This document shows, one piece after another, positions 17,921 to 64,000 of a stretch of DNA of 64,000 bases. The position numbers were made by a program, and so were the translations under genes. How positions within the stretch are numbered: position 1 is the first letter of the stretch; the number at the start of each line of letters is the position of its first letter. The notes under the pieces are model-generated. The model worked only from the letters and a program-made list of their open reading frames with translations. It was not told the origin of the DNA and did no database searches. The DNA is from Abiotrophia sp. HMSC24B09 (GTDB lineage: Bacteria; Bacillota; Bacilli; Lactobacillales; Aerococcaceae), in assembly GCF_001815865.1 (NCBI RefSeq), contig NZ_KV822203.1:69773-133772 (forward strand), read 5' to 3'.

Positions 17921-17934
17921 CTTGGAGAGGAGAC

Positions 17935-17973: not shown

Positions 17974-17991
17974 ATTAAAAGAGGTGATCTT

Positions 17992-18590: not shown

Positions 18591-18598
18591 GAATAAAC

Positions 18599-18639
18599 AA
18601 AACGCCATGGCTCGGTATGATTACCTAGCCATGGCGTTT
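18599..18639. terminator. bidirectional terminator between two TA pairs
   Basis: AAACGCCATGGCT pairs with AGCCATGGCGTTT across a 15-base loop. It lies between the convergent mazF and parE-like genes. Confidence 0.8.
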
Positions 18640-18646
18640 GCTTGGT

Positions 18647-19223: not shown

Positions 19224-19293
19224 CAACGCCACCTCCTTTTGATGGCTATATTATACCATAAATTTAGACACATATATAGTCATTTATAGCAAA

Positions 19294-19323
19294 AGGCCCC
19301 CTTATCTGATCATAAGGGGGCCT
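19294..19323 (-). terminator. terminator of the GNAT gene
   Basis: Perfect 12-bp stem AGGCCCCCTTAT/ATAAGGGGGCCT with a 6-base loop, then TTTTGC on the minus strand. Confidence 0.85.
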
Positions 19324-19330
19324 GTTCTTA

Positions 19331-19786
19331 TTATAATTGATAGACCATAATGTGTTCATTGATGTCTGGGTCAAAGCCAGTCTCTTCAAAGCCTAGACCT
19401 AGCAAAATCTTCTTCATGGGCTCGTTCCCATCAACATAGTCGGCCACTACCTTGGTCATCTGAGTTTGCTGTTTGGCCATTTCAACTACTGCTTCAATGG
19501 TTTGTCGGCCGTAGCCTCTGCCTTGGAAGGCTTGGTCAATTAGGAAGCGCCAAACAAAGACATGCTGCTCCTCTGGATCCAATTCATACATAATGAAGCC
19601 AACTAAATCCTCATCTGCATAAATGGCTTTGGGATAGGTAATGCCTTCTTCACGGTAAAACCAAGCATCTGCCAAGGATCGGACAACAGGAGACACAAAT
19701 TTGGCTGCTTCTTGCGCAGGAGTAATCTTGAGATTTAAGACTTGGGAGTAGTTGTCGCTTGTTATCTCTCTAAAGTTAATGGTCAC
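19331..19786 (-). CDS. GNAT N-acetyltransferase (spermidine/spermine-type)
   Basis: About 151 aa with the acetyl-CoA loop RFLIDQAFQGRGYGRQTIE and a preceding FIMYELDPEEQHVFVW strand pair, resembling BltD/PaiA-like polyamine acetyltransferases; the substrate is inference. The initiator is likely GTG: 19786 sits 9 bases from AGGGAAG, whereas GTG 19795 abuts it. It may be co-transcribed with the M42 gene upstream, since they are 21 bases apart. Confidence 0.82.
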   Translation of the reverse strand: MTINFREITSDNYSQVLNLKITPAQEAAKFVSPVVRSLADAWFYREEGITYPKAIYADEDLVGFIMYELDPEEQHVFVWRFLIDQAFQGRGYGRQTIEAVVEMAKQQTQMTKVVADYVDGNEPMKKILLGLGFEETGFDPDINEHIMVYQL

Positions 19787-19807
19787 ACTCGTCACTTCCC
19801 TGTCATC

Positions 19808-20845
19808 TTACTTGACTAAATCACTCAAGAGATAGGCATCCACCAAGCGCTCGGTCGCCTCCACAGAGTCCACATGGGTCCGCTCATAGGAATGGCTGGA
19901 CTCGATGCCGGCACCGCAGAGGGCGTGCTTGACTTCGGCACCCGCTGACATAGCGGCCGAAGCGTCGGATCCATAGAATGGGTAGATGTCTAATTTGTAA
20001 GGAATGTCCTTGGCCTTAGCCAGCTCCACCAGGTGTTGGCGGAATTCATAGTGGTAGGGGCCGCTGGCATCCTTGACACAGATGGAGACGGTGTACTCGT
20101 CGGTCTGCTGGTCGTCACCCATGGCGCCCATGTCAACCGCCAGATACTCCACCGCTTTGTCCGACAGGCTAGAGTTAGCCCCGTGCCCTACTTCCTCGAA
20201 GACCGAGAAGGCAAATTGGGTCGTCACCGGCAGGGTGATGTCCTCTTCCTTATAACGGCGCAACAAGTTAAGCAGGATAGCGGCAGACACCTTGTCATCG
20301 AGGAAGCGAGACTTGATGAAGCCTGTGTCGGTGATGGTGGTTCGTGGGTTGAAGGAGACAAAGTCACCCACTTCAATACCTAGGGCGCGGGTTTCTTCCT
20401 CGTTGGTAACCTTGGCATCTAAGCGGACTTCCATGTTGTCTTGAGTCCGCTCAGCCGTCCCCGCATCACGGTAGACGTGGGTAGAAGTCTGGTGAATGAG
20501 AATTGTCCCAGATACAGTTTTGCCGGTGGCCGCCACATGGACGGTACAGTTCTCCCCTTCGATCATATTCCAAGGAAAGCCGCCCACCTTGTCCAGCTTG
20601 AGCCGGCCGTCGCCTTTGACCGCGCGCACCATGGCCCCCAAGGTGTCAACGTGAGCCGTCACGATGCGGTGGTGGTCATCGTCCTGGCCCGGCACCGTCA
20701 CATGTACCAGTCCTTTGGAAGTGCGTACCGGTTGGTAGCCCATTTTTTCCAGAGTCGATACCAAATAGTCCTGAACGCCACTCGTGTAACCCGTTGGCGA
20801 CGCGATAGCTAGAAGTTCTTGCAGATAACTTAAGGTTGGATTCAT
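19808..20845 (-). CDS. M42-family aminopeptidase
   Basis: A 345-aa member of the M42 di-metal aminopeptidases (PepA/FrvX/YsdC type). Visible ligands: VTAHVDTLG (His/Asp), FLDDKVSA (bridging Asp), FSVFEEVGHGA (catalytic Glu plus ligand), AVDMGAMG (Asp) and the final His in GIESSHSYERTH. It removes N-terminal residues from peptides in the cytoplasm. ATG 20845 follows AAGGGGGC. It marks the left border of the scar zone. Confidence 0.88.
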   Translation of the reverse strand: MNPTLSYLQELLAIASPTGYTSGVQDYLVSTLEKMGYQPVRTSKGLVHVTVPGQDDDHHRIVTAHVDTLGAMVRAVKGDGRLKLDKVGGFPWNMIEGENCTVHVAATGKTVSGTILIHQTSTHVYRDAGTAERTQDNMEVRLDAKVTNEEETRALGIEVGDFVSFNPRTTITDTGFIKSRFLDDKVSAAILLNLLRRYKEEDITLPVTTQFAFSVFEEVGHGANSSLSDKAVEYLAVDMGAMGDDQQTDEYTVSICVKDASGPYHYEFRQHLVELAKAKDIPYKLDIYPFYGSDASAAMSAGAEVKHALCGAGIESSHSYERTHVDSVEATERLVDAYLLSDLVK

Positions 20846-20945
20846 CCTAATGCCCCCTTGAAAATTGTTTACACCTTCATTATAACACAAGTTTGGATAG
20901 GCGCCCTATCTTTTTGCGTGACAAATGGGGCGGGTGCCCGCAGTC

Positions 20946-37490: not shown

Positions 37491-38726
37491 ATGGAATCCA
37501 TGCTCCAACGCTTTATCCGCTATGCTAAAATCAACACCCGGTCCGACTTGCACTCGGATGCCGTGCCGACCACACCCGGCCAACTGGACTTCCTCCGCAT
37601 GTTGGAGAGCGAACTCAGAGACCTCGGCCTCAGTCAAGTCCGCTTCAATCCAGTAGACGCCTTTGTCACCGCCCTCTTGCCAAGCAACCTGCCGGCCCAT
37701 CAAAAGGCACCATCTATTGGCTTTATCGCCCATGTGGATACGGCCGACTTCAATGCTGAAAATATCCAGCCCCAGGTCCATGCAGACTATGACGGCCAGG
37801 ATATTGTCTTGAATCCTGACTTGGGCATTGTCATGCGGGTGTCTGAATTTCCTAACTTGAAGCACTATGTGGGCCAGACCCTGATTACTACGGATGGCAC
37901 CACCCTGCTGGGGGCCGACGACAAGGCAGGTCTGGTCAGCATCCTAGAGGCGGTCATCCACCTCCTAGCCCATCCTGACCTACCTCATGGCGATATTTGG
38001 CTAGCCTTCGGACCCGACGAAGAAATCGGCAAAGGCGCCCACCGCTTCCAAGCCCAAGACTTCCCGGCAGACTTTGCCTATACGCTGGATAGCGGCCAAG
38101 TGGGCAAGTTGGAATACGAGACTTTCAATGCCGCCCGGGTCATGTTGACCATCGACGGGACTAGTGTCCATCCCGGGACCGCCAAGGGCCTCATGGTCAA
38201 TGCCCTGGCTGAAGCTGCCAAACTCTTCGCTCGCCTGCCTCAAGACCAGGTGCCCGAACTGACCGAGGGACACGAGGGCTATTATATGCTGTCCAGCCAA
38301 AGTGGCGACATTGGCCAAGCTCAGGCTACCTACATTATTCGCGACCATGACAAGGAAAGTTTCCAGGCTCGCAAGGACTTCTTCCGTCAGATTGTGGCCC
38401 AACAGAATGCAGGCTACGACCGGCCCCGTATCCAATGCCAAATTTACGACGAGTACTACAATATGTACGATATCCTCAAGCAAGACATGACGCCGGTTGA
38501 GGTAGCCATTGCCGCCTACAAGGCCTGCGGCATTGAACCTCTTATCAAGCCTTTCCGGGGCGGGACAGACGGCTGCATCATCACCTATAAGGGCATCCCG
38601 ACGCCTAACCTCTTCACGGGCGCCGAGAACCTTCATGGCCAGTATGAATTTGTCAGCTTAGAAAGCATGGAAAAGGCCAGCCAAGTGGTCCTTACCATCA
38701 TCCAATCAGTGGTCAGCCCAGACTAA
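37491..38726 (+). CDS. pepT: peptidase T (tripeptide aminopeptidase)
   Basis: A 411-aa M20B zinc peptidase that removes the N-terminal residue of tripeptides. Visible: FIAHVDTAD (His81 ligand, Asp83), LLGADDKAG (bridging Asp), GPDEEIGKGAH (catalytic Glu pair), TLDSGQVG (Asp), and RGGTDGC near the C-terminus. Length fits the family. Monocistronic, convergent to the PTS-peptidase operon with a shared terminator. Confidence 0.93.
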   Translation: MESMLQRFIRYAKINTRSDLHSDAVPTTPGQLDFLRMLESELRDLGLSQVRFNPVDAFVTALLPSNLPAHQKAPSIGFIAHVDTADFNAENIQPQVHADYDGQDIVLNPDLGIVMRVSEFPNLKHYVGQTLITTDGTTLLGADDKAGLVSILEAVIHLLAHPDLPHGDIWLAFGPDEEIGKGAHRFQAQDFPADFAYTLDSGQVGKLEYETFNAARVMLTIDGTSVHPGTAKGLMVNALAEAAKLFARLPQDQVPELTEGHEGYYMLSSQSGDIGQAQATYIIRDHDKESFQARKDFFRQIVAQQNAGYDRPRIQCQIYDEYYNMYDILKQDMTPVEVAIAAYKACGIEPLIKPFRGGTDGCIITYKGIPTPNLFTGAENLHGQYEFVSLESMEKASQVVLTIIQSVVSPD

Positions 38727-38729
38727 AAT

Positions 38730-38756
38730 AAGCCAGGTAGCTCAACTACCTGGCTT
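38730..38756. terminator. bidirectional terminator between pepT and the PTS-peptidase operon
   Basis: Perfect 11-bp stem AAGCCAGGTAG/CTACCTGGCTT, loop CTCAA, with TCTTTG on the plus side and TATTTTAG on the minus side. Confidence 0.85.
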
Positions 38757-38777: not shown

Positions 38778-39677
38778 TTAACGAATGGCGGAGCCGGCCA
38801 CACGGCTCACCGTATGCCGCATGCCCCGTATGGCCACTGATAAGGCGAAGATATTTTCCACATTGGCCAAGCCGCCAAAGCCTGCGTCGCCAATATGTTG
38901 AATATCCACGCCAGCCACCTTATTGCGAATAGCAATGTCTTCCACCACCCGCGGGCTGCTGGATTCCTGGCTGGTCCCGATAGCAGATAGGACTAGGACA
39001 TCGTGAGCATGGGCGTACTTGACAATGGCCACCAGCTCATCATCGGTAAAGCCCGGCACTGTTCCCACGGCCGGCACTAGGAGAATGTCGGTCCCGGCCT
39101 CTATGAAGTCCTTGGCAGTCTCAATGCTGGCCACTGGCTCCTTGGACCCAGCCCCATGCATTTTACCGGCAATAACCAGACCAGAGAAATGTTGCTTGGC
39201 TACCTTGACATAGTGGGCGATTTCCTTGTTGGTTACCCCCGTGCCAGGGTTCCCGGTCAAACAAATGAAGTCTAAACCTAGGCGGTCGGCCGCTTCTAGG
39301 GTCTCAACCGAGCAGGTCCGGCCTTTAGGCAGAACATTACGCGCCTCCACCATAATGGCGTCAGCATCAACTGGCTCTAGGTTGGCCCCAATTGGGCGGC
39401 CTGATAGGGCTTTTAGACGGCGAATGGGATCCTCTGTCCCTTGATCCAAGCCACAAATGACAGGATTAAGGACATCTAGCCCATTCAAGAGCATGAGGTC
39501 TGCCCCGAAGGCCTTAGCGATTTCCGCATTGGTCAAGTTGCTGATATAGGCAGGCACAGGTGCCACCATTTCACAACAAACGGTCCGGCCTTCAGCGGCC
39601 CAGATGGCTTGCTTGAGTTCTTCTGCACTGTAGCCAGCGTAGTCGCTGGGCAGGCATTCTAATACACGTCTTACCAT
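38778..39677 (-). CDS. TIM-barrel-like protein of PTS operons (DUF7916 type)
   Basis: A 299-aa protein with repeating beta-alpha units: GRTVCCEMVAPVPAYISN, GADLMLLNGLDVLNP, GRPIGANLEPVD, LDFICLTGNPGTGVTN, LVIAGKMHGAG, GTDILLVPAVGTVPGFTDDE, VLVLSAIGTSQE. These Gly-rich strand ends suggest a TIM barrel. Relatives in PTS operons were long mislabelled haloacid dehalogenase; the reaction is unknown. It is the last gene of the operon, 2 bases after cutC, and could act as an aldolase or phosphosugar isomerase on the imported product. Confidence 0.7.
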   Translation of the reverse strand: MVRRVLECLPSDYAGYSAEELKQAIWAAEGRTVCCEMVAPVPAYISNLTNAEIAKAFGADLMLLNGLDVLNPVICGLDQGTEDPIRRLKALSGRPIGANLEPVDADAIMVEARNVLPKGRTCSVETLEAADRLGLDFICLTGNPGTGVTNKEIAHYVKVAKQHFSGLVIAGKMHGAGSKEPVASIETAKDFIEAGTDILLVPAVGTVPGFTDDELVAIVKYAHAHDVLVLSAIGTSQESSSPRVVEDIAIRNKVAGVDIQHIGDAGFGGLANVENIFALSVAIRGMRHTVSRVAGSAIR

Positions 39678-39678
39678 A

Positions 39679-40422
39679 TTACTCCTTCTTTCCTAGTGCT
39701 TGGCCTAGCGCGCGCGCTAGGTCCCGGTCTGCCCCTTCATAGGCTCCTCGAGGATCGTAAGCAAATGAAACAGAGCCTTGCTGGGTCGTAGGGTCTTGGT
39801 ACCAGGTCTTGAAGCTGCCGTGGACTTGTTGAATGCCTGTATAGGCCACCAGGTCCTCCGCATTAGCCAAATTCAGACCGGCCCCCATGACAAATTCAAT
39901 GTCTGCCCCATATTGGGCTTGATAATGAGCCAGTCGTTCTCGCCCTTCCTCGATGCTCTTGGCTCCCCCACTGGTCAAAATCCGCTGGCAACCTAGCTTA
40001 ATCAAGCCTTCAATGGCTTGGTCAGGCTGGGCCACCACATCAATGGCCCGGTGGAAGACTGATTGGGCGCCATAGGTCTGACAGAGCTCAATCAGGGCCT
40101 GGTTTGCCTCCCAATTAAGCTGACCAGTCTCAGTTAGACAGCCAAAGGCCAAGCCACGGGCACCTGCTCTCAACAAGGCTTGGCCTTCTGCCAACATTTG
40201 CCTGATTTCCAGCTTATCATAGGCGAAGCCACCGCCACGTGGTCGGACCATGCAGATGATTGGCAGGGTCACGCCATTAGCTTTGGCTAATTCCAGACAG
40301 GCCACCGTTGGCGTCAGCCCCCCCAGGGCCAGGCCACTGTTGAGCTCAATCCGGTCCAGGCCAGCTTCTTGGGCAATCAGACAATCTCTGACACTGCCGG
40401 CACACAACTCAATTAGGGTCAT
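39679..40422 (-). CDS. cutC: CutC-family protein
   Basis: A 247-aa TIM-barrel protein with the CutC hallmarks: IELCAGSVRDCLIAQEAG, RIELNSGLALGGLTPT, CMVRPRGGGFAY, GARGLAFGCLT, VFHRAIDVV, RILTSGGAKS. Named for copper homeostasis but its true function is unsettled. I start at ATG 40422, which overlaps the M20 gene stop by 4 bases, behind GAGGAGG. Its place in a PTS-peptidase operon argues for a metabolic role here. Confidence 0.88.
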   Translation of the reverse strand: MTLIELCAGSVRDCLIAQEAGLDRIELNSGLALGGLTPTVACLELAKANGVTLPIICMVRPRGGGFAYDKLEIRQMLAEGQALLRAGARGLAFGCLTETGQLNWEANQALIELCQTYGAQSVFHRAIDVVAQPDQAIEGLIKLGCQRILTSGGAKSIEEGRERLAHYQAQYGADIEFVMGAGLNLANAEDLVAYTGIQQVHGSFKTWYQDPTTQQGSVSFAYDPRGAYEGADRDLARALGQALGKKE

Positions 40423-41594
40423 GGACTTGCCTCCTCCACTTCTTGTTCTAGCTGCCATAAGGCCAGTAAGGCCTGGCTATAAATTTTTAGATCCGTCTCT
40501 AAATCCTCAATGCCTAGCCATTCATGAGGCAAATGGGCGATGTCCCGTTGGCCCGGGAAAGAAGGCCCGTAAGCGACGATATTAGGCACAAACTTGGCAT
40601 AGGTACCCCCAGTGGTTGTGACGGGCTCAAGGGCTTGGCCGGCCACCTGGTTGTAGACCTGCTGCAAGGCCTCAATATAAGGCGACTGCTTGTCCTTGAG
40701 GACAGGCGCCCAATGGCTGAGGACCTCTATTTGGCCTGTTTCCGGCAGGCGCGACTTAATTTGGGCCAGAATCTCTTCCTGACTGCAGGTTCCTGGATAG
40801 GCCATGGACCAAGCCACCCAAGGCCGTCCCTGAGTTAGCCCCAGCTGGTAGCCCCTTAGCATCATGCGGCCAAAGTCCTGGTCCTCATAAGCAATGCCCA
40901 GCTCCCGACCATCCTTGGTGCCGGTCAGCAGATAGGCATTAACAAAGTCAAAGAGGCTGGCCACTTGATCCGAATCCACGCTAAGGGCTACCCGCAAACG
41001 CCCTCGCTCGCCATAGACGACCGGCCATTTGCAATCTGGCGTCCAACCGAAGAGGGGTGCTGCTTCCTGGGACAGATAATGCTGGATGCAGCCAAAGCCT
41101 GTCTCCTCATTGGTCCCAAATACCACCCGAATGGGATGACGGAAGTGATAGCCTAGGCATTTGAGAGCATAAAGGGCATAGAGATTGGCCAGAATGGGCC
41201 CCTTATTGTCTAGGACGCCACGCCCTTGGTAGCGACCTTGTGCTTGATTCTTGGTTAGGGTCCAGGGATCCTGCCGCCAGCCTTGACCGGCCGGCACCAC
41301 ATCCACATGCCCGAAAATCCCATAATAGCCAGCACCTGAGGTCGCCTGGTTAGGGTCAGGCGACCACTGGGCATAGCCAACCTTATGGTCTAGATTGACC
41401 GTCTCAAAGCCCATAGCTTTGGCCCGGTCTAGCACCCAGTCCAGGGCAGCCTTAGGTCCAGGACCATAGGGAGCGTCTTGCTCCGCCGGGCCCTGCACAC
41501 TGGGAATGGCTACCAGTTGGGCTAGGTCCTGCCAGTATTGGGGTAGCAAGTCTTCCAGCAAGGCATTGAGTGCTTGAATTTGCTTGAGGGTCAT
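40419..41594 (-). CDS. M20-family metallopeptidase (PepV/Sapep-like)
   Basis: A 391-aa zinc peptidase: GIFGHVDVVPAG (His ligand, Asp), GRGVLDNKGPILA (bridging Asp), VFGTNEETGFGC (Glu pair), TPDCKWPVVYGERG, and TTGGTYAKF near the end. Resembles dipeptidases that split Xaa-amino-acid bonds. ATG 41594 is supported by CTGGAGGTGAAG; it lies 2 bases after the glycosylasparaginase-like gene. In this operon it may trim a peptide released from the imported substrate. Confidence 0.85.
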   Translation of the reverse strand: MTLKQIQALNALLEDLLPQYWQDLAQLVAIPSVQGPAEQDAPYGPGPKAALDWVLDRAKAMGFETVNLDHKVGYAQWSPDPNQATSGAGYYGIFGHVDVVPAGQGWRQDPWTLTKNQAQGRYQGRGVLDNKGPILANLYALYALKCLGYHFRHPIRVVFGTNEETGFGCIQHYLSQEAAPLFGWTPDCKWPVVYGERGRLRVALSVDSDQVASLFDFVNAYLLTGTKDGRELGIAYEDQDFGRMMLRGYQLGLTQGRPWVAWSMAYPGTCSQEEILAQIKSRLPETGQIEVLSHWAPVLKDKQSPYIEALQQVYNQVAGQALEPVTTTGGTYAKFVPNIVAYGPSFPGQRDIAHLPHEWLGIEDLETDLKIYSQALLALWQLEQEVEEASP

Positions 41595-41596
41595 GC

Positions 41597-42559
41597 CTAC
41601 TTCACCTCCAGGGGCCGCATGCGTTGACGCACATAGTCGTCTAGCCATTCCTGACTCGCCCGTTCCAATTCCATCTGGCCAGAAGCCAGCGGATGAAGAC
41701 GGTAGACGGTCAAAGGGGTGGTCTTGCTGGCCACCACGAAGGAGAAGTTGTCAATATTGGTTGCGGCCCCCCACTGGCCCTTGGCGTTCATGGCCACTAC
41801 CGACAAATCGCCGGCTTGGCCGCGTTGAGCTCTCAGACGTCTGTCCAGGTCATGAACAGCCTTTTCGCAGGCCTCTTGGGGATGGTAACCCGCAGCCATC
41901 AGACCAACGATGACGTAAGACAGGACCCCTTTCATCAAATCTTCCCCTAGGCCAGTAGCGGTGGCGCCCCCAATCTGGGAGTCCACATAGAGACCCGAGC
42001 CAATAATAGGCGAGTCGCCTACTCGACCGGGATGCTTCATGAAGAGGCCACTGGTCGAGGTCCCAGCCACCATGTGATTATGTGCATCTAGGGCCACCAT
42101 GCCCACGGTGTCATGGCCGTCGTAGGCAGCTAGGCCTTGTTCTTGAGCTAGCTCCACCTGGCGATTGTGGTAGTGGATTTGAGCCCGGTCTGTCAGCATT
42201 CCTTTGGCTTCAAAGCCATGGTCTAGGGCATATTGGCAGGCACCTTGGGCGACCAAGACATTATTGACCGGTTCCTGGCTGAGGCGGCGCGCCACCCCAA
42301 TAGGGTTGGCAATATCCTGAATCCCGCAAACGGCCCCAAAGTCTAGGCGACTGCCGTCCATATAGGCGGCATCTAATTCTACCTGGCCTTGGCGGTTAGG
42401 CAGACCGCCGTAACCGACGGATTTATAATAAGGAAAGTCTTCGACGGCCTTGATGGCTTGCTCAATGGCGTCACCCGCAGAGCCACCGCCTGCCAAGCTA
42501 GGCAGGGTGGCCTGGACTCCTTCTAGGGCCATGCGCCAGGTCGCAATGATTCCCCACAT
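41597..42559 (-). CDS. glycosylasparaginase-like Ntn hydrolase
   Basis: A 320-aa homolog of N4-(beta-N-acetylglucosaminyl)-L-asparaginase. The self-cleavage/nucleophile Thr is Thr151 in GHDTVGMVALD, followed by AGTSTSG, GRVGDSPIIGSGLYVD and GGATATGLGEDLMK, which form the substrate site in the family. The known reaction splits the GlcNAc-Asn bond of glycoprotein breakdown products. It belongs to this group rather than to type II asparaginases by the HDT-G-M context. ATG 42559 follows GAAGGTG. No signal peptide, so it acts on imported material. Confidence 0.88.
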   Translation of the reverse strand: MWGIIATWRMALEGVQATLPSLAGGGSAGDAIEQAIKAVEDFPYYKSVGYGGLPNRQGQVELDAAYMDGSRLDFGAVCGIQDIANPIGVARRLSQEPVNNVLVAQGACQYALDHGFEAKGMLTDRAQIHYHNRQVELAQEQGLAAYDGHDTVGMVALDAHNHMVAGTSTSGLFMKHPGRVGDSPIIGSGLYVDSQIGGATATGLGEDLMKGVLSYVIVGLMAAGYHPQEACEKAVHDLDRRLRAQRGQAGDLSVVAMNAKGQWGAATNIDNFSFVVASKTTPLTVYRLHPLASGQMELERASQEWLDDYVRQRMRPLEVK

Positions 42560-42587
42560 GGCTGTCACCTTCTTTCTGTCATTGATT

Positions 42588-43691
42588 CTATACTTGATAA
42601 TGATAATTTTGGTCCAGCAGCTGCTGGTAGATAGCCGGCGTCAAGTCCCGCGCCACGGCCACCATGAGGCGGTAGGCCGCTAGGACATCAGCCCGATGCA
42701 AGATACCCCGGTGGGTATGCATATAGCGCATAGGAATGGACAGGGTCGTCGCTAAAATCCCGGTTTGGGATTTATGGATATTGCCCGCATCTGTCCCCCC
42801 GTCTAGGAAGCAGCCCAGTTGGTAAGGAATCCCCTCCCGCTGGCAGATGCCTTCCAAGTAACGCAAGAGGCCCCGGTGGGTTACAGTCATATTATCGGCC
42901 ACCGTTAGGGAGACACCCTTGCCTAGCTTAATAGGATTGTGGTCAGCTGGCGTATCGCCTGCTAGGCAGGTATCCACTGCTAGGGCAATGTGCGGCTTGA
43001 CGGCTTGGGCCACGGTTCGCGCCCCCCGCAAGCCCACTTCTTCTTGAACGGTCGCCCCCAGGGTCACCTTGTTGGGACAAGAACCCTGGGCTAGGGCCTG
43101 CATGGTCCAGACTCCCAGAGCCACACTGACCCGATTATCGAAGGCCTTGGCGGCCAAATAGTCAGGATTGGCTAAGGCCTGGAAAGTGGTCACCGGGCAA
43201 ACCCAGTCGCCCACCTCAATGCCCAGAGCTCGGACTTGGTCGCGATCGTCCACCCCCAGATCCAGATAGACCCGGTCCATGGGCACCACTTGCTGGCGCT
43301 GCTCAGGGCTAAGACTATGAACCTGCGGTCCAGCCAGAATCCCCGTGTAGACCCGGCCGTCCTGGGTGAAGACCTGGGCCTCTTGTTGCAAGAGGGTATG
43401 GGACCAGGAGCGCCCCACTTCCTGAATGAAGACATAGCCGGCCTCATCAATGGCCCGCACCACCCATCCGATTTCATCCATGTGGGTGGAAAAGAGCAAG
43501 GACAAGGGTGACTGGGACTGACCTGCTAGGCTGTAGAGGCCAGACCCCAAGGAGTCGGTGCCTTGCTGGCACATGGTCAGCTGCCGGTCCAAGTAGGCCC
43601 GAATGCCGGCCTCATGGCCCGACACTCCGGGTAAGCAGCATAAATCTGACAGGACTTGCCAGTCCACCTGACCTTGAGCTTCAGTGGTCAT
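42588..43691 (-). CDS. M42-family aminopeptidase (catalytically complete)
   Basis: A 367-aa M42 peptidase with all usual ligands: FSTHMDEIG (His, Asp), AFDNRVSV (bridging Asp), TVQEEVGLRGA (catalytic Glu and ligand), AVDTCLAG (Asp) and IPMRYMHTHRG (final His). Start ATG 43691 follows GGGAGGTGG and overlaps the upstream M42-like gene by 11 bases. Paired with an inactive-looking paralog, it may form a mixed M42 oligomer (family members form 12-subunit tetrahedra). Confidence 0.88.
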   Translation of the reverse strand: MTTEAQGQVDWQVLSDLCCLPGVSGHEAGIRAYLDRQLTMCQQGTDSLGSGLYSLAGQSQSPLSLLFSTHMDEIGWVVRAIDEAGYVFIQEVGRSWSHTLLQQEAQVFTQDGRVYTGILAGPQVHSLSPEQRQQVVPMDRVYLDLGVDDRDQVRALGIEVGDWVCPVTTFQALANPDYLAAKAFDNRVSVALGVWTMQALAQGSCPNKVTLGATVQEEVGLRGARTVAQAVKPHIALAVDTCLAGDTPADHNPIKLGKGVSLTVADNMTVTHRGLLRYLEGICQREGIPYQLGCFLDGGTDAGNIHKSQTGILATTLSIPMRYMHTHRGILHRADVLAAYRLMVAVARDLTPAIYQQLLDQNYHYQV

Positions 43692-44691
43692 GAGGGCCAC
43701 CTCCCCGACTGCCAAAGCCAAAGTCTCGGACTTGGGCTGGGGTCAGTTGGCTCAAGAAGGCCACCAGGGTGTCTCGCACGGGCTCGAAACTAGCTGGATC
43801 TAGACACTGATAAAGGCCTGGCGACTGGAGGAGTGGCAGGGCAATAACCAAGGTCGGTGCCCCCACCCCTGTCTTATGGATAAAGGCCCCATCGGTCCCG
43901 GCCTCTTGAACCTGGCCCTTGACTTGGTAACCCAGCTCCTGGGCCACTTGGCGAATGGCTTCCAACAAGGCCGTGTTAGGTAAGAGGGTCTTATCAAAAT
44001 AACGCAAATAGAGACACTTAGGGTCATAGTCAGAAGCAGGAACCGGACTGGCATCCAGCACCAGGGCCAAGTCTGGTTGAATAAGATTGGTGGCGGTAAT
44101 GGCCCCCCGGGTCCCCACTAGGGACTGGCTAATGCCACCCACAGCCAACTCATAGCTAATCTTATCTTGAAGTTGGCGACTCATATCCAGTATCAGCTCG
44201 AGGCTGGCCCGATTGGCCAAGTTACGACCTAGCCAGGCACCCCCACCTATTTGCCGACGGGAAAAGTCTAAGACAAAGCTGTCGCCCACCTGGATGCCCA
44301 AGTCAGCCACTTGCTGGGCTGAGGCCGCGCCTAGCGCTAGATAGGGTTGGCCCTCTACCAGGACCCCATAGCCCACATGAGGCACATGGTCCCGGCTTAA
44401 GAGGCGGACCACTTGGTTGACATAGTCGGTCTTCTGATAGCGGCCTAGGGCCACAAAGTCCAAGAGCCCATCCGGACGAACGGCTTGAATCAGACCGCCA
44501 TTTTCATCCAGATTAGTGGTCAGCATGACCCGAAAGGGCGCCTGCTCCCTTGGCTTGAGGCCCAAGACAGAGCCCAGTTGATCCCGATAGAGACTGAGCC
44601 CTTGGTCGGTCAGGGCTTGGGCCAGGGCTTGATGCAGGTCGAATTCATCTCCCGACAAGGCGGGTAAATCATAGAAGGCTTTCCAATCCAT
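43681..44691 (-). CDS. M42-like pseudoenzyme lacking metal ligands
   Basis: A 336-aa protein aligning with M42 peptidases along its length but with every metal or catalytic position changed: TTNLDENG (His to Asn), NLANRAS (bridging Asp to Asn), ISQSLVGTRG (Glu-Glu to Ser-Gln), and ALPLLQSPG where RYMHT is expected. The fold is kept (GTDGAFIHKTG, LVLDASPV), so it is conserved without hydrolytic chemistry. ATG 44691 follows AGGAGGTG. It sits directly before the active M42 gene. Confidence 0.8.
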   Translation of the reverse strand: MDWKAFYDLPALSGDEFDLHQALAQALTDQGLSLYRDQLGSVLGLKPREQAPFRVMLTTNLDENGGLIQAVRPDGLLDFVALGRYQKTDYVNQVVRLLSRDHVPHVGYGVLVEGQPYLALGAASAQQVADLGIQVGDSFVLDFSRRQIGGGAWLGRNLANRASLELILDMSRQLQDKISYELAVGGISQSLVGTRGAITATNLIQPDLALVLDASPVPASDYDPKCLYLRYFDKTLLPNTALLEAIRQVAQELGYQVKGQVQEAGTDGAFIHKTGVGAPTLVIALPLLQSPGLYQCLDPASFEPVRDTLVAFLSQLTPAQVRDFGFGSRGGGPHDH

Positions 44692-44701
44692 AAGGCACCT
44701 C

Positions 44702-45208
44702 CTAGTGGAAGAAGTAAGGCCAATCGGCCTCTGCTGGGCCACTGAGAATTTCAGCAATATGGTGCAGGGCATCCGTCAGCCCTACCCCGCCCTTCTTAGG
44801 CATCTGGATCATTTTAACCTGGTCCTTGTAGCGGTCGACCACGGCCTCATTTTCGGCGGAGCAAGCCACATAGGTGCGGACAGGCGTCTGGTCTTGAATA
44901 TTGGCCGCGACTTCGGCCGCCATTTGAGCGTAGGTGTCGTAGTTGAAGCAAGGGCCACACAAGAGGACATCAGGTTGCGCCTTCTTCATGAGATTGGCAA
45001 TCTTGTGTAAGACTTCTTCCTTATTAGCCTGAAAATAATCAGGCCCGCAGTAGACGGTCGCCAGGACCTTGAGGTCGTGGGCCGCGAAGACGTCCTTAAA
45101 CATGAGATAAGAGCCAATCCCGCCCTTTTCCAATCCCAGTGGCGTGTTGGGGCGTTCCTTGCCCCCATAACCGGCCTGAATTTGGTCGAATAATAGGATT
45201 ACTTTCAT
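44702..45208 (-). CDS. GrdB-related small protein of PTS operons
   Basis: A 168-aa protein resembling the N-terminal part of the glycine/sarcosine/betaine reductase B subunit: VLATVYCGPDYFQANKEEV, then PDVLLCGPCFNYDTYAQMA, matching the GrdB-type GDxxFNENKEE and PDxFxAGPAFNAGRY segments. The C-terminal half that carries selenocysteine in GrdB is absent, so reductase activity is unlikely. It opens with a Rossmann-like ILLFDQIQAGYGGKERP and heads the distal part of the operon after a hairpin. AGGAGGGAA precedes the ATG. Confidence 0.7.
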   Translation of the reverse strand: MKVILLFDQIQAGYGGKERPNTPLGLEKGGIGSYLMFKDVFAAHDLKVLATVYCGPDYFQANKEEVLHKIANLMKKAQPDVLLCGPCFNYDTYAQMAAEVAANIQDQTPVRTYVACSAENEAVVDRYKDQVKMIQMPKKGGVGLTDALHHIAEILSGPAEADWPYFFH

Positions 45209-45226
45209 CCTTATTCCCTCCTCAGC

Positions 45227-45259
45227 AAAAAGAGTTCAGCAGGATAGGGCTGAACTCTT
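45227..45259 (-). terminator. internal hairpin attenuator after EIIC
   Basis: Perfect 11-bp stem AAGAGTTCAGC/GCTGAACTCTT followed by TTTTTGC on the minus strand, 8 bases past the EIIC stop and before the GrdB-like gene. It is terminator-shaped but lies inside a gene run, so it likely lowers expression of the enzyme genes relative to the transporter. Confidence 0.7.
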
Positions 45260-45266
45260 CAGTTGT

Positions 45267-46619
45267 CTATAAATCATCGAAGGACAAGTCGTCCAAGGAA
45301 ATATCATCTAAATCGTCTTTAAGGTCTTGAACTGGTTTCTCTTCTTCAGCCAAGAATTGACGGTCCATTACCTTGAAGAATGGATAGTAGATTAGGCAGT
45401 CGATGACAATTAAGATAATTTGCCAGAAGCCGGCAATCAGGTGCCCAGTGGCCAACCAACCAGAGAAGAAGAATGGGGTTGTCCATGGGATGCTGACCCC
45501 GGTAGTTCGTGGCAGAATACCGATAACTGTTGCGATAATGGATAAAATGGTGTTAACCAGTGGTGTTGCAAGGAATGGCACCAACATAATTGGGTTGAGT
45601 ACGACTGGTAGCCCGAAGATAATCATTTCGTTAATCCCGAAAATCCCAGGTACAATGGCCAAACGACCCAAGGTCTTCATACGTTTGGACTTGGCAATCC
45701 CCACCATGAGGAAGACCAAAGCCAAGGTAGAACCCCCACCCCCGAAGTTGGTGAAGAAGTTACTGAAACCGTTGGTGAAGATGTTAGGCAATGGCAAGCC
45801 ATTCTTGAAGGCTTCCAAGTTTTCAGTGGTCAGAGCCAGACCAATTGGCGCGAAGACCGTATTGGTAACGGCTGGCCCATTAATCCCGAAGAACCAGAAG
45901 AAGGTGGACAGGAACTGGGTCAGAGGTTCTAGAAAGACGCTGCGTCCAATCCCTAAGAGAGGTGCTTGCAGGTTGGTATAGATAAAGGTATGAGCATAGT
46001 GATAATCTGTGAGCGAGAAGCCAAGGTAAACCAAGAAGAAGGTTAACATGGCAAAGAGCGAAGGAATCAAAGCCGCGAAGGATTGAGAAACTGCTGGTGG
46101 CACCCCGTCAGGCATCTTGATGACCCAACCCTTACGTTCAATGGCTACGAAGATGCGGACCGAAACAATGGCTGTAATCATGGCCACGAACATGCCGGCG
46201 GACCCCATATTAGCATTAGCCAAACCATTGAAGACCTTGCCGGCTTCGTTGGTGAAGGCTGGGTGGGATTTAGGTGTCAGAATCAAGAAGCAGACGACGG
46301 AAATGGCTGCCCCAGCAATAGGGTCTGATTCCAGTTGACGGGCATAGGCATAACCAATCCCGATAGCCCCTAAGAGGGCGATGACACTAAAGGTGGAATC
46401 AATCACAGCATCCATGTGGTTTTCCCAACCTTGGCCGAAGAATTGGGCCATAAAGTCGGTATAACCTTCAATTGGGAAGTTACCGGCCAAAATGAAGAAG
46501 GAAGCGACAATAATGAGTGGCGTGGTCACCAAGAAACCATCACGAATAGCAATTAATACCTTATTATTGCTGAGTTTCTCGGCTGTCCCGCCCATGACTT
46601 TTTCAAGATTTGCAAACAT
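45267..46619 (-). CDS. PTS EIIC, lactose/cellobiose/chitobiose family
   Basis: A 450-aa membrane permease (CelB/ChbC type) with about ten TM segments and family motifs IRDGFLVTTPLIIVASFFI near the N-terminus and FGINEMIIFGLPVVLNP in the substrate region. It moves and phosphorylates the sugar part of the substrate together with EIIA and EIIB of this operon; ChbC-type members take beta-linked disaccharides including chitobiose. An acidic tail (DLKDDLDDISLDDLSFDDL) ends the protein. Confidence 0.9.
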   Translation of the reverse strand: MFANLEKVMGGTAEKLSNNKVLIAIRDGFLVTTPLIIVASFFILAGNFPIEGYTDFMAQFFGQGWENHMDAVIDSTFSVIALLGAIGIGYAYARQLESDPIAGAAISVVCFLILTPKSHPAFTNEAGKVFNGLANANMGSAGMFVAMITAIVSVRIFVAIERKGWVIKMPDGVPPAVSQSFAALIPSLFAMLTFFLVYLGFSLTDYHYAHTFIYTNLQAPLLGIGRSVFLEPLTQFLSTFFWFFGINGPAVTNTVFAPIGLALTTENLEAFKNGLPLPNIFTNGFSNFFTNFGGGGSTLALVFLMVGIAKSKRMKTLGRLAIVPGIFGINEMIIFGLPVVLNPIMLVPFLATPLVNTILSIIATVIGILPRTTGVSIPWTTPFFFSGWLATGHLIAGFWQIILIVIDCLIYYPFFKVMDRQFLAEEEKPVQDLKDDLDDISLDDLSFDDL

Positions 46620-46654
46620 GTGACTTACCTCTTTTCTTATAATGAGATCTGTAC

Positions 46655-46981
46655 TTAGCCTTGCTTGTTCTGCTTGAGTAATTGAATGGCGCGCTTGAGA
46701 ATGCGTTCGCCATTGACGTTACCATAATCGTCTAGGTTCATAACTTCAACAGGAATGCCCTGGGGCTCGTATTTGTCCCGGGTGGCATTGAATTTGTATT
46801 TGACTTGAGGCCCTAACAAGATGACATCAGGATGATACTGTTCCACGATGATATCGAGCTTAGAATCTGAGAAGGCCTTGACTTCAATGGGCAGGTTGTG
46901 GTCGTCCGCCACGGCCTGCATACGGCTGGCAACCAGGCTGGTCGACATGCCGGCACTACAGAATAAATAGACACGTTTCAT
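46655..46981 (-). CDS. PTS EIIB, lactose/cellobiose family
   Basis: A 108-aa phosphocarrier with active Cys8 in YLFCSAGMSTSL, the P-loop of Lac-family EIIB. It passes phosphate from EIIA His to the sugar. AGGAGGAAATACC precedes the ATG. Confidence 0.92.
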   Translation of the reverse strand: MKRVYLFCSAGMSTSLVASRMQAVADDHNLPIEVKAFSDSKLDIIVEQYHPDVILLGPQVKYKFNATRDKYEPQGIPVEVMNLDDYGNVNGERILKRAIQLLKQNKQG

Positions 46982-46997
46982 GGTATTTCCTCCTAAT

Positions 46998-47318
46998 CTA
47001 GGTGGTGAGCTGGTCCAAACGTTGATAGAGGGCCAGAACTTCTTCGGCTGTCACCTTAAGCAGTTCAGCACTCATGAGTTGATCTTCGGCATGAACTAAC
47101 AAGAGCGAGAAAGGTGGATGGTCCCCTGCCGCATCCGCCTGCAAGAGGTCGAAATGCTGATCATGACCGGCAATCCGTTGGCTCTCCCCTTGCTCAATGG
47201 CCGCCTGGGCTTGGGCGAAGTCGCCTGTCCGGGCTAGCGCCATGGCTTCCATGAAGGAAGATCGGGCGGATCCCAAGGAAGAAATCATCTTGAAGAATAC
47301 CAACTCTAAGTCATCCAT
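46998..47318 (-). CDS. PTS EIIA, lactose/cellobiose family
   Basis: A 106-aa helical phosphocarrier with the phospho-His76 in LLLVHAEDQLM. The EIIA/EIIB/EIIC genes are adjacent and in the same order as in cel/chb operons. AAAGGAGG precedes the ATG. Confidence 0.92.
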   Translation of the reverse strand: MDDLELVFFKMISSLGSARSSFMEAMALARTGDFAQAQAAIEQGESQRIAGHDQHFDLLQADAAGDHPPFSLLLVHAEDQLMSAELLKVTAEEVLALYQRLDQLTT

Positions 47319-47350
47319 ACCATTACCTCCTTTCCTATAAAATAAACTTG

Positions 47351-49273
47351 CTAACGAGATGGATGGGGAAATTCGCCCACAATAGCGGCCAAGAAGTCGT
47401 CGCGACTGCTAGCGGCTAAGAGGGACTTGAGCTGACGCGGATGGGCTAGGCACTGGCCTAGCCATTTGAAGAAGACTTGGGTGAAGGCCCAGTCGCTGTC
47501 TTTAAGCGCCAAGAGAATGACCAGTTTAACAGGGTAGCGGCCCCACTCAATGGGACTGGCTAGATTAGCAATGGCCAGGACCGACTGGTGACTGTGGGCT
47601 TGCAGGGGATGGGGAATGGCCAAGGCATAGTCAAAATCCGTCGACGACAGGGCTTCGCGCTCCAAGACCGAAGGCAGAAAGTCCGGCGTCACATAACCGG
47701 CTTGAGCCAAATCCTGGGCCATGAGGGTCAGGACTTGCTCGGGGCTGCTGGCCTGCAAGTCTTGATAGAAGAAGCGTGACTCCAGAAAGTCCCCCAATTG
47801 TAGGGCCAGCTGGATGGCTGTTTGACGCTGTTCTACTTGGTTGAGCAGACTGACCAAGGCTAGCTCATCTTCCTCATTGAAGAAGGTAGAGACCTGCAAG
47901 GTCGGGAGGCCCAAACTCTGAGCCAGAGGCATAAAACTAATGACTAAGTCGACAGGCTGATGCAGGAGCTGGGCTTCACTGACATAATCATATTGGGCTA
48001 GAATTTCCAGCCGGTGGCCGAAGCTAGCCTTGAGCCGGTTGATTGAGGATTGCATAAGGGGATAGTGCTGGGGCGCCAACAAAATGGCTCGCGCCTTCCA
48101 TGGTCGCTCCAGGCGAGAATAGGAGCTACCGATATGGACGGCAATCAGCCCGATTTCGGCTTCGGATAAGACGACCCCTAGGCGGGCGCCCAACCAGGTA
48201 CTGACCGTTACCGCCAGGTCGAAGACCAGGGGATACTGGCGTTTCATATCTTGTAGGAAGAGATTGGGCAGCTCCACCTGATAATGGAGCCGTTCAATCA
48301 AGCCTTGTAGGTGGAGATGGAAGCGATCCTTAAAGTCGGCATCACTAAGAAAATCCAAGCCCACCAAGTCTTGTAGGTGCTGGCCCAAGTCTTGGACCAA
48401 GCGGGTCAAATCCAGGGGCCGGCCCTGATAGATGACCTGTGAGGCTAGCTCATGCATGGCCTGATAAGCTTCTAGCAGGCGGCCAATACTATAGGCTTCA
48501 GAGGCTGGAATCCGACACTTATATTGCTTACCCACCCCCTGCAAGAACTTGCGAGCTAAGGCTTCTTCCTTAGCCGCCAAAGGCGGTAGATCCTGACGAT
48601 GATAGAGAAATTGACCGGCCAGCATACGCTGAACCGCGATCCCGACGTGTAGGAGTAAGATCGGTAAACTGGCAGGCCGAAGCTGATAGTCTGCCTGCTT
48701 AAGCAGGCCTTGAAAGTAGTGGGCCACCCAGACCATATCGAATTCTTCATAAATAGCTAAGACCTTATCCAGATTCAAGAAATCACCCTGAAGCTCTGAG
48801 GTCAGGAGCTCCCGATAGAACCGGCGCTTCTGGAATTCAGGGCCCTTAAGCTGCCAGCCCTTGGCATCATGTTCTAGGTCTAAGTCCGGGTAGGCCCCCA
48901 CCAACTGACCGACTTGATGCAAATCCATGGTTAGGGTTTGGGGGCTGACATAGAGGTCTTGGCTCAGCTCCTTGAGGGTCTGAGGCTGACTGTCAGCCAA
49001 TAGGAGTTTGAGTATATAATGTAGCCTTTCTTCCTGACTCTGTGGCAGGCCCAGAGGGCTGGGCTGATTGGAGTCTTCCAGGGCTTGGGCCACTAGCCGA
49101 TAACCCTTGTGGTGATGAGTCTGGATGGCCCCTGGATAGTCTTGCTTTAACTTGTTCATATCAGAGCGAATGGTCCGGTCGGAGACGCCCAACAAAGCCG
49201 CTAGGTCCCGTCCCTTGAGCCAGCCTTGTGACTGGGCCAAAATGACCATGAGCTGTTCCTGTCGTGTCTGCAT
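47351..49273 (-). CDS. PRD-domain transcriptional activator (LicR/ManR type)
   Basis: A 640-aa multidomain regulator: N-terminal helix-turn-helix (LKGRDLAALLGVSDRTIRSDM), a second HTH (LKELSQDLYVSPQTLTMDL), two PTS regulation domains, a mid region resembling EIIB-Gat, and a C-terminal EIIA-fructose/mannitol domain with the phospho-His context ALAIPHPLQAHSH. Such proteins are activators whose DNA binding depends on PTS phosphorylation state. The ATG at 49273 is placed behind AGGAGGAGGG. As first gene of the operon it probably activates it; a 20-bp palindrome lies upstream. Confidence 0.87.
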   Translation of the reverse strand: MQTRQEQLMVILAQSQGWLKGRDLAALLGVSDRTIRSDMNKLKQDYPGAIQTHHHKGYRLVAQALEDSNQPSPLGLPQSQEERLHYILKLLLADSQPQTLKELSQDLYVSPQTLTMDLHQVGQLVGAYPDLDLEHDAKGWQLKGPEFQKRRFYRELLTSELQGDFLNLDKVLAIYEEFDMVWVAHYFQGLLKQADYQLRPASLPILLLHVGIAVQRMLAGQFLYHRQDLPPLAAKEEALARKFLQGVGKQYKCRIPASEAYSIGRLLEAYQAMHELASQVIYQGRPLDLTRLVQDLGQHLQDLVGLDFLSDADFKDRFHLHLQGLIERLHYQVELPNLFLQDMKRQYPLVFDLAVTVSTWLGARLGVVLSEAEIGLIAVHIGSSYSRLERPWKARAILLAPQHYPLMQSSINRLKASFGHRLEILAQYDYVSEAQLLHQPVDLVISFMPLAQSLGLPTLQVSTFFNEEDELALVSLLNQVEQRQTAIQLALQLGDFLESRFFYQDLQASSPEQVLTLMAQDLAQAGYVTPDFLPSVLEREALSSTDFDYALAIPHPLQAHSHQSVLAIANLASPIEWGRYPVKLVILLALKDSDWAFTQVFFKWLGQCLAHPRQLKSLLAASSRDDFLAAIVGEFPHPSR

Positions 49274-49294
49274 AAGCGCCCTCCTCCTAGGCTG

Positions 49295-49374
49295 TGACAT
49301 CGCTTTCTCTCAATTCTATTATAACATTTTATGTGCCATCTAATCGCTAAAGTTATTTCCTAAGCTTAGGAAAT
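49295..49374 (-). promoter_or_regulatory. control region of the PTS-peptidase operon
   Basis: Three elements on the minus strand. A -10 TATAAT (49318-49323) without a good -35. Downstream a cre-like site AGAAAGCGATGTCA (49295-49308), one mismatch from TGAAAGCGNTNTCA, where CcpA would block transcription. Upstream a perfect 20-bp palindrome ATTTCCTAAGCTTAGGAAAT (49355-49374), centred about 43 bases before the -10, where an activator would bind. The weak -35 fits activator dependence. Confidence 0.65.
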
Positions 49375-61907: not shown

Positions 61908-64000
61908 TTATGCTTCATGATCCTCATCTTGTGAGGCGTCAGTAGACGCTTGATTCTTGCGACGACGGAAGAAGAGAATAGCGCCGCCGAGAGCTAGGAG
62001 AGCAAGAGCCAGTGGTGTTAACCAAGCCATGACTTGTTCACCGGTTGATGGCAAATTGCCGTCCTTGCGTTCTACACCAGAAGTCTTAGTCGCTGTCACC
62101 TTGTCAGATGAAGCACTCGAACTTGAGGAAGCCGCTGGTTTCTCAGCTAATTGAATGGTCCGCTTAGCCGTCTGCCCGTTGGCCAGCGTTAATTTAATCT
62201 TGGTTTGATCCAATTGGTAAGGTTCTGGAACGGCCACTACATAGTAGTCGTAGTCCCCTGCCTTAAGATTGGTAAAGGTGACTTTCCCTTGGGCATCCGT
62301 CTTCAATTGTTGGTTGCCTACGGCTAGGGTTACGTCTGCTACTGCTTGGCCGGCAACGTTGACCACGTTGAGTTCCAAGCTGGCTACTTGGGCCTTACGG
62401 CTGACCTTGAGGATTGGATGTAAGTCCGCACCTGGGGCCACATCTAAGGTTTGCGCACCTGTTTCAGCTTGATAAGCTTCTGGCACTTCCTTAATGCCGT
62501 AAGTGTACTTACCTGCTTCCAAAGCTTCGAAGAGGATATTGCCTTGGTCGTCCGTTTGGCCTTCCAATTCACCTAAGTAAACCGTCACACCTGGGACACT
62601 TTGGTTATTGTCATCCATGACTTTCACCGTCACATTAGCGACTGCTTGTTGACGTTGAACAGTCAAAGTAATGGAATGATCGGTGTCAGCTGGTAATTCC
62701 GCGTCGCCTGCTTGGGCGCCGGTGTAATTTTCTGGCAAGTTGACAATCTCATAGTGGAAGGTCCCTGGGGTCAAGCCTTTGAAGACAGCTTGGCCGTATT
62801 CATTGGTGACTTGTACTTGGTCGCCAATCTTGACGCTAACGCCTGGTACTTCCTTGCCGGCATTATCCAAGACTTTGACGGTCAGGTCACGCTTCTCAGC
62901 TTGAGAAGAAGAGGATGAACTTGAAGAAGAAGCTTGATCCTTGCGGCTCACTTGTAAGGTAATGGAGTGGTCGGTGTCACTTGGCAATTCAGCGTCACCA
63001 CTAGGCGTGCCTTCATAGCCTTCTGGCAATTGGGTTACCGCGTAGTGAATCTTACCAGGCGTTAAGCCCTTGAAGTGGGCATCCCCATTTTCGTCAGTGA
63101 CAGCCGTTTGGTCGCCAACGGTCACGGTCACGCCGGCTACAATCTTCTGATCTTGGTCTAAAATCTTGATAGTCAAGTCGCGTTTGACAGCTTCAACCGC
63201 TGGTTGTACTGGTTTCTTAGTCACTTGTAAGGTAATGGAATGATCGGTGTCACTTGGCAATTCGGCATCACCACTTGGTGTGCCTTCGTAGCCGTCTGGT
63301 AAATCCGTTACGGCATAGTGAACCGTCCCTGGCGTCAAGCCTTTGAAGTGGGCATCCCCATTTTCATCGGTCTCAGCACTTTGGCCTTCTACAGTGACCG
63401 TTACGCCGGACACAATCTTTTGTTCTTGGTCTAGGACTTTAACGGTCAAGTCGCGTTTAGCTGCTGGCGCTTGACTAGAAGATTCAGCCTTCTTAGCTAC
63501 CTGCAAGGTAATGGAGTGATCAGTGTCAGCTGGCAGTTCGGCATCCCCATTTGGCATGCCTTCATAGCCTTCTGGCAATTGAGTGACGGCATAGTGAACC
63601 TTACCAGGAGTCAAGCCCTTGAAGTGGGCATCCCCATTTTCATCGGTTACTGCGGTTTGGTCTGCCACAGTGACCGTTACGCCGGCTACCGTCTTTTGTT
63701 CTTGGTCTAGAACCTTAACGGTTAGGTCGCGCTTAGTCACTTGAGGCTCAGCCTTCTTAGCTACTTGCAAGGTAATGGAATGATCAGTGTCACTTGGCAG
63801 TTGGGCTTCGCCACTTGGTGTCCCTTCGTAGCCTTCTGGCAAGTTAGTCACGGCATAGTGTACGGTACCTGGCGTCAAGCCCTTGAAGTGGGCATCCCCA
63901 TTTTCATCCGTTACGGCACTTTGGTCTTCTACTGTTACCGTTACGCCTGCTACTGTCTTTTGTTCTTGGTCCAGAACCTTAACGGTTAAATCGCGCTTAG
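61908..64000 (-). CDS. LPXTG cell-wall surface protein with tandem Cna-B-like repeats, partial
   Basis: The frame is open from the right window edge to the stop at 61908, so the N-terminus lies beyond 64000. At least seven ~85-aa Cna-B-like domains run in tandem, starting KRDLTVKVLDQEQK and containing GVTVTV, TDENGDAHFKGLTPG, and ELPxDTDHSITLQV. The N-terminal four are nearly identical; the last three (nearest the wall) diverge. A Ser-rich linker and the sortase signal LPSTGE, TM helix and RRRKNQ tail follow. Such stalks hold an adhesin head away from the wall. The divergent copies may carry isopeptide bonds, not checked. Confidence 0.9.
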   Translation of the reverse strand, partial: KRDLTVKVLDQEQKTVAGVTVTVEDQSAVTDENGDAHFKGLTPGTVHYAVTNLPEGYEGTPSGEAQLPSDTDHSITLQVAKKAEPQVTKRDLTVKVLDQEQKTVAGVTVTVADQTAVTDENGDAHFKGLTPGKVHYAVTQLPEGYEGMPNGDAELPADTDHSITLQVAKKAESSSQAPAAKRDLTVKVLDQEQKIVSGVTVTVEGQSAETDENGDAHFKGLTPGTVHYAVTDLPDGYEGTPSGDAELPSDTDHSITLQVTKKPVQPAVEAVKRDLTIKILDQDQKIVAGVTVTVGDQTAVTDENGDAHFKGLTPGKIHYAVTQLPEGYEGTPSGDAELPSDTDHSITLQVSRKDQASSSSSSSSSQAEKRDLTVKVLDNAGKEVPGVSVKIGDQVQVTNEYGQAVFKGLTPGTFHYEIVNLPENYTGAQAGDAELPADTDHSITLTVQRQQAVANVTVKVMDDNNQSVPGVTVYLGELEGQTDDQGNILFEALEAGKYTYGIKEVPEAYQAETGAQTLDVAPGADLHPILKVSRKAQVASLELNVVNVAGQAVADVTLAVGNQQLKTDAQGKVTFTNLKAGDYDYYVVAVPEPYQLDQTKIKLTLANGQTAKRTIQLAEKPAASSSSSASSDKVTATKTSGVERKDGNLPSTGEQVMAWLTPLALALLALGGAILFFRRRKNQASTDASQDEDHEA

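Follow-up and report, generated by a model that had tools for sequence, protein, structure and literature searches.

The window analysed here is a 64,000-nucleotide stretch of the Abiotrophia sp. HMSC24B09 genome (RefSeq assembly GCF_001815865.1, contig NZ_KV822203.1, positions 69,773 to 133,772; coordinates below are positions in the window), and its minus strand carries a run of eleven open reading frames (ORFs), from 49300 down to 38778, that constitutes an extended variant of a pathway already known in gut bacteria. The run is probably an inducible operon for the use of N-glycoprotein remnants, in which N-acetylglucosaminyl-asparagine (GlcNAc-Asn) is imported by a phosphotransferase system (PTS), trimmed by peptidases, cleaved by a glycosylasparaginase and further processed in a step involving a GrdB-like protein. 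In this scheme the PTS would import GlcNAc-Asn, perhaps still carrying a few neighbouring residues, as the 6-phosphate, after which an M42 aminopeptidase, in complex with an inactive partner, and a PepV-type dipeptidase would remove the flanking residues. We place trimming before cleavage because glycosylasparaginase needs free alpha-amino and alpha-carboxyl groups. Cleavage of the sugar-Asn bond would yield aspartate and 1-amino-GlcNAc or its 6-phosphate, which would lose ammonia to give GlcNAc-6-phosphate for NagA and NagB. The phosphorylated glycosylamine, or another phosphorylated intermediate, is probably the compound on which the GrdB-like protein acts. An initial annotation had likewise proposed import of a glycosyl-asparagine or glycopeptide, cleavage by the N-terminal nucleophile (Ntn) hydrolase and peptidase trimming, and this core is retained because it agrees with the family and conserved residues of the enzyme, with its conserved gene neighbourhood and with a published locus of the same composition. 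Protein families, intact catalytic residues and conserved neighbourhoods are read directly from sequence; what we infer is the substrate (any imported peptide included) and that it is phosphorylated, the sequence of reactions, the complex of M42 proteins and the role of the GrdB-like protein.

The predicted glycosylasparaginase (41597-42568, minus strand, as for all genes of the run), an Ntn hydrolase of the Asparaginase_2 family, has its nucleophile Thr within the motif GHDTVGMV. Among solved structures it scored 204 bits against the Elizabethkingia glycosylasparaginase (residues 7-280) and 124 bits against isoaspartyl peptidases, and it shares 30% identity with Escherichia coli IaaA and 54-56% with three homologues resembling that of the enterococcal glycosylasparaginase (ega) locus and three resembling that of the Lactobacillus casei alf-2 locus, the latter defined by a fucosidase within about 5 kb of the hydrolase. 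Both motifs on which the earlier assignment was based, GHDTVGMV and GRVGDSPI, occur in the protein and line up with solved glycosylasparaginases. All 98 of 98 aligned hydrolases, the window protein included, have the nucleophile Thr, the Arg and Asp of GRVGDSP, which we take to bind substrate, and an N-terminal Trp, which we likewise assume to be functional; the Trp is absent from IaaA (a length filter in the residue alignments kept 98 of 101 hydrolases and 67 of 72 M20 proteins). The protein is thus classed by these features as a glycosylasparaginase (EC 3.5.1.26) and not as an isoaspartyl peptidase, in agreement with the earlier call.

A candidate source of substrate and a candidate sink for product were identified in the closest genome compared (G001), which is collinear with the window at 95.1% identity across 14.5 kb around the operon. 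This genome encodes a predicted wall-anchored GH85 endoglycosidase of 1527 amino acids, judged by eye to open with a signal-like segment and to carry a C-terminal LPETG motif. Enzymes of family GH85 leave a single GlcNAc attached to Asn. The GH85 gene adjoins beta-galactosidase-like and fucosidase-like ORFs, identified by eye, in what looks like an N-glycan degradation cluster (L273, 1236-11575). Also present is nagA, which scored above cut-off and adjoins an ORF that we read as nagB-like.

The initial annotation suggested searching other genomes for a conserved gene set, and such a set was recovered among 80 named loci, the best 80 of 141 found by patterns derived from the window hydrolase. 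Many of these are close relatives, four (L072, L073, L074 and L077) come from the same genome, and some are cut by contig ends. Counting tblastn matches (E 1e-8) at any position of the retrieved sequence, paralogues possibly included, M20 was present in 70 of the 80, EIIC, EIIB and CutC in 63 each, the GrdB-like protein in 58, EIIA in 52, M42 in 11 and DUF7916 in five. Within the same run as the hydrolase, the counts were 58 for M20, 56 for CutC, 49 for the GrdB-like protein, 47 each for EIIC and EIIA, and 46 for EIIB. Gene order varies by lineage, which indicates that content itself is conserved, and not only order. The proposed pathway would link a gene set that extends from Leptotrichia to Clostridium with PTS-mediated use of N-glycoprotein remnants. 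Aspartase was detected in nine of the 80 loci and malic enzyme in eight; both would consume the aspartate produced. Membrane proteins of the RDD and YitT families are also repeatedly encoded next to the set (36 and 29 of the 80 loci, respectively; L002-L064), chiefly in Clostridia and Erysipelotrichia.

The same survey bears on an alternative, which we regard as unlikely, whereby the PTS imports chitobiosyl-asparagine, (GlcNAc)2-Asn, or chitobiose, and a 6-phosphoglycosidase frees GlcNAc-6-phosphate before the hydrolase cuts unphosphorylated GlcNAc-Asn. A system for splitting phosphorylated chitobiose is carried by 21 of the 80 loci, of MupG type in 16 and comprising GH4 with ChbG in five, and some relatives may therefore import chitobiosyl-Asn. 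Both kinds of system have precedents in growth on chitobiose, for which Lacticaseibacillus paracasei needs ChbE (GH170, of the MupG kind) and E. coli employs ChbG together with a GH4 enzyme (PMC12791066). The two systems never occurred in the same locus, although this mutual exclusion is not significant (p 0.58). Family searches of the eleven operon proteins matched no glycosidase family, so that the initial statement that no glycosidase is encoded holds for the window operon but not for the wider family. Searches of G001 detected neither GH4 nor ChbG, and its only MupG-type gene lies in a cluster with a PTS gene and a gene that we read as MurQ-like, of a kind suggestive of N-acetylmuramic acid use. 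In that cluster, sulfatase-like and formylglycine-generating-enzyme-like genes (L136, 2043-4414), recognised by eye, precede the MurQ-like, PTS and MupG-type genes. A GH85 enzyme, moreover, would be expected to leave one GlcNAc on Asn, not two. For the window operon we accordingly prefer GlcNAc-Asn as substrate.

A further association concerned the GrdB-like protein (44702-45208; NF041545, 232 bits, cut-off 175), which has 168 amino acids and lacks selenocysteine. Glycine/betaine reductase GrdB is a full-length protein with a redox selenocysteine/cysteine region, whereas the window protein aligns only to about positions 1-155 of GrdB models 347-435 positions long and is thus not a full-length GrdB. 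The short family exceeded its cut-off in 25 of 295 Lactobacillales genomes, 24 of which also encode the hydrolase, compared with 56 of 295 overall (p 8e-19). In 23 of those 24 the two genes lie no more than 3.6 kb apart, while in the other (G166) they are on different contigs; this locus shows no PTS and was scored as lacking the GrdB-like gene. We further compared 56 Lactobacillales hydrolase loci from 55 of the 56 hydrolase-bearing genomes, omitting G048 (a partial hit), taking one of two loci for G208 and G212 and both for G040, and counting genes within 5.5 kb as near. EIIB or EIIC was near 33 of them, and the GrdB-like gene was near 23 of these 33 PTS-linked loci versus none of the other 23 (p 3e-8, Fisher; the Fisher tests here treat loci or genomes as independent and ignore kinship). 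The natural reading of this confinement is that the protein functions where sugar uptake is coupled to phosphorylation, suggesting a phosphorylated intermediate as the compound on which it acts; we propose the 6-phosphate of 1-amino-GlcNAc. The unphosphorylated compound is released by L. casei AsnA2 and is described as unstable at acid pH (PMC6960285). The association predicts a previously unrecognised step on a phosphorylated glycosylamine, and the predicted structure of the protein gave no further hint of its role. In one genome (G164:C1:300339-300835, L254) the GrdB-like gene is interrupted by several stops, indicating that it can be lost, comparable to an oxidoreductase pseudogene reported for one strain of Enterococcus faecalis.

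The two M42 genes constitute an old active/inactive pair. Of six positions taken as important in the family (metal ligands and catalytic Glu), the upstream protein (43681-44772; PF05343, 96 bits) has lost five and kept one, whereas the downstream protein (42588-43721; PF05343, 271 bits) keeps 6/6 and is a predicted intact aminopeptidase. The description of one as dead and the other as active was therefore accurate, and the former is a family member by its sequence but presumably not an enzyme. Across 19 adjacent M42 pairs, the window included, the upstream copy was in every case missing one or more metal or catalytic residues, and 6/6 were always retained downstream. These 19 contain near copies (window/L111, L031/L042, L070/L078 and L001/L112), the upstream gene of L001 is fragmented in the ORF list with its first ligand unreadable, and L115 was left out for having a single intact M42 distant from the hydrolase. 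In a phylogenetic tree, upstream and downstream copies fell in separate parts, each comprising the same two lineage sets (Clostridia with two Lactobacillales families; Erysipelotrichia with Leptotrichia and the window's family). The inactive copy thus likely arose once, a conclusion weakened by some long branches and by the M42 of L171, which has all positions intact and yet groups beside the inactive copies.

By analogy with PhTET2-PhTET3 of Pyrococcus, in which two different M42 (TET) proteins can build one particle (PMC4220976), the aminopeptidase and its inactive partner may form one complex. The likeness lies in the two distinct M42 proteins, a mixed particle in the window being predicted from the genes; the difference is that one of the two proteins here is without an active site. 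A search of an open-access library found no paper on an inactive M42 partner, and the pair would be a clear bacterial example of an inactive protease subunit retained with its active partner. Elsewhere in the window (16191-20890), a PTS EIIC-EIIB gene (16191-17843) lies close to another M42 gene (19808-20890), and G001 likewise has M42 genes near PTS genes.

Combining these observations, we advance two linked proposals, tentatively and as possible though not probable: that the PTS imports short glycopeptides which are trimmed down to one glycosyl-asparagine by a dedicated M42 assembly of intact and active-site-less subunits, and that the GrdB-like protein is a new enzyme converting 1-amino-GlcNAc-6-phosphate to GlcNAc-6-phosphate and ammonia. 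If so, the inactive subunit would serve to bind the bulky glycan or to gate it, and the substrate of the GrdB-like enzyme, a reactive compound, would be formed only when the sugar enters via the PTS. The GrdB-like family NF041545 and the conserved pseudo-M42 peptidase, neither of which has had an assigned role, would each gain one that can be tested.

The transporter belongs to the lactose/cellobiose family, with EIIA at 46998-47318 (PF02255, 93 bits), EIIB at 46655-46981 (PF02302, 55 bits) and EIIC at 45267-46619. EIIC scored 389 bits against the cellobiose IIC model (TIGR00410), which clears the lactose/cellobiose subfamily cut-off (236) but not the cellobiose equivalog cut-off (434), so the label of a chitobiose/cellobiose-type PTS was a fair one. 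Since lactose/cellobiose PTS families commonly take disaccharides, and other PTS genes in the window (16191-20890) have an M42 gene nearby, the imported sugar could be an ordinary disaccharide, with the hydrolase and peptidases merely co-regulated and acting on peptides or isoaspartyl compounds. We hold this to be very unlikely, because 33 of the 56 Lactobacillales loci keep the hydrolase near PTS genes, the operon encodes no 6-phosphoglycosidase, and the hydrolase is not of isoaspartyl type by sequence.

The remaining proteins of the run are a PepV/Sapep-type M20 dipeptidase (40419-41648; TIGR01887, 289 bits, cut-off 208; PDB match PepV), a CutC family protein (39679-40458; PF03932, 168 bits; PDB match CutC) and a DUF7916 protein (38778-39677; PF25509, 406 bits), predicted to be a TIM barrel from a model with a predicted local distance difference test score of 91 and from fold matches. 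An N-glycan scheme assigns no step to CutC, DUF7916 or the GrdB-like protein, which would be accommodated if the substrate were another glycated amino acid, e.g. an Amadori compound, and the hydrolase had changed specificity. We consider this highly improbable, given that none of the eleven proteins was assigned to a deglycase family, the glycosylasparaginase residues show no change, and GH85 is present in G001. DUF7916 may be a general PTS partner; each of the three such genes found in G001 (G001:C1:257220, 544716 and 1686473) either has PTS genes within about 2.5 kb or belongs to the present operon. Sources name DUF7916 proteins as haloacid dehalogenase-like hydrolase or PEP phosphonomutase, and the 90% cluster of the window protein has 1340 member sequences, which suggests that the organism is often sampled in metagenomes.

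Several points weigh against the GlcNAc-Asn pathway as a whole. The scheme was assembled from sequence throughout, and acceptance of a 6-phosphorylated sugar by glycosylasparaginase is an assumption. CutC and DUF7916 have no step in it, and only 11 of the 80 named loci have the M42 pair. Ten of the 33 PTS-linked loci have no nearby GrdB-like gene and its presumed counterpart is a pseudogene in an E. faecalis strain, so the protein is not always needed. GH85 was found in two of five genomes searched, and the evidence for GH85 and nag genes comes from G001 and not from the genome of the window itself. Furthermore, pepV was dispensable for 6'FN-Asn use in L. casei (PMC6960285).

The organization of the run is that of a single operon opened by a PTS-controlled type of transcription activator (47351-49300) with HTH, Mga-like, PRD and EIIA-2 domains. 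The eleven genes lie on one strand, as initially described, with the activator ORF opening at 49300; the start first given, 49273, would fit a slightly later start codon. In transcription order the intergenic distances are 32, 16, 35, 58, -71, -41, 19, -52, -40 and 1 bases, bearing out the short or overlapping gaps noted before (four overlaps, largest gap 58 bases). The hairpin recorded after EIIC was also confirmed, as a stem-loop with a T run behind it, in the interval separating the EIIC and GrdB-like genes (45229-45260, minus strand; -17.6 kcal/mol for the whole 52-base stretch, z -2.2, with 6/200 shuffles equally good), which may lower expression of the downstream genes. A strong two-way intrinsic terminator follows the last gene (38730-38756), although the scan as a whole found 12 terminators against a shuffle mean of 12.5 and hence no overall excess. 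It closes both the operon and a convergent M20 peptidase gene (37491-38726; tripeptidase-like by eye) that abuts the operon end. Ratios of nonsynonymous to synonymous substitution (Ka/Ks) between the window and G001 ranged from 0 to 0.18 across the eleven genes, the maximum of 0.176 belonging to the inactive M42; EIIA and EIIB differ at only one and five sites, respectively, which makes their zero values little informative. Elsewhere, the window encodes a histidine-triad protein (10945-13119) and a repeat-rich LPXTG surface protein (61908-63878).

Comparison with known systems places the operon among published relatives. The initial annotation knew of no established function for the gene set, but its core has been published for E. 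faecalis ega and L. casei alf-2; for the extended set, a search of an open-access library found no paper. The title of one article ties the ega locus to GlcNAc-Asn use (Combret et al. 2024, Res Microbiol 175:104169), and the locus is described as containing EgaG, EIIB, EIIC, a dipeptidase, a GntR regulator and a putative oxidoreductase gene, the last being a pseudogene in the strain examined (PMC11160706); on our reading this oxidoreductase gene is the counterpart of the GrdB-like gene. The window shares with it the clustering of a glycosylasparaginase, lactose/cellobiose-type EIIB and EIIC, a dipeptidase and a GrdB-like gene, but differs in gene order and in having its own EIIA, a PRD-type activator, the M42 pair, CutC and DUF7916. 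No GntR regulator, which in ega lies beside the dipeptidase gene, was found among the eleven window proteins; since the activator is instead of PRD type, we call the operon a variant and not an ega locus.

In L. casei, AsnA2 of the alf-2 locus splits GlcNAc-Asn by assay and is linked to a PepV-type M20 peptidase (PMC6960285), a linkage also seen in the window. The alf-2 locus comprises an MFS permease, an alpha-fucosidase, a sugar kinase and AsdA where the window has a PTS, and none of these four was found among the eleven proteins. A fucosidase was near nine of the 56 Lactobacillales hydrolase loci, none of them PTS-linked (p 1e-4, Fisher); the nine are a lower bound, as one query was used and a fucosidase about 5 kb from the hydrolase in G080 was not counted. 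The chb operons of L. paracasei and E. coli share a cellobiose-type PTS, a GlcNAc-containing substrate and NagA downstream, but require GH170 or ChbG with GH4, all of which the window operon lacks. Of the components of the operon, the M42 pair and the GrdB-like protein, with its confinement to PTS-linked loci, merit further investigation.

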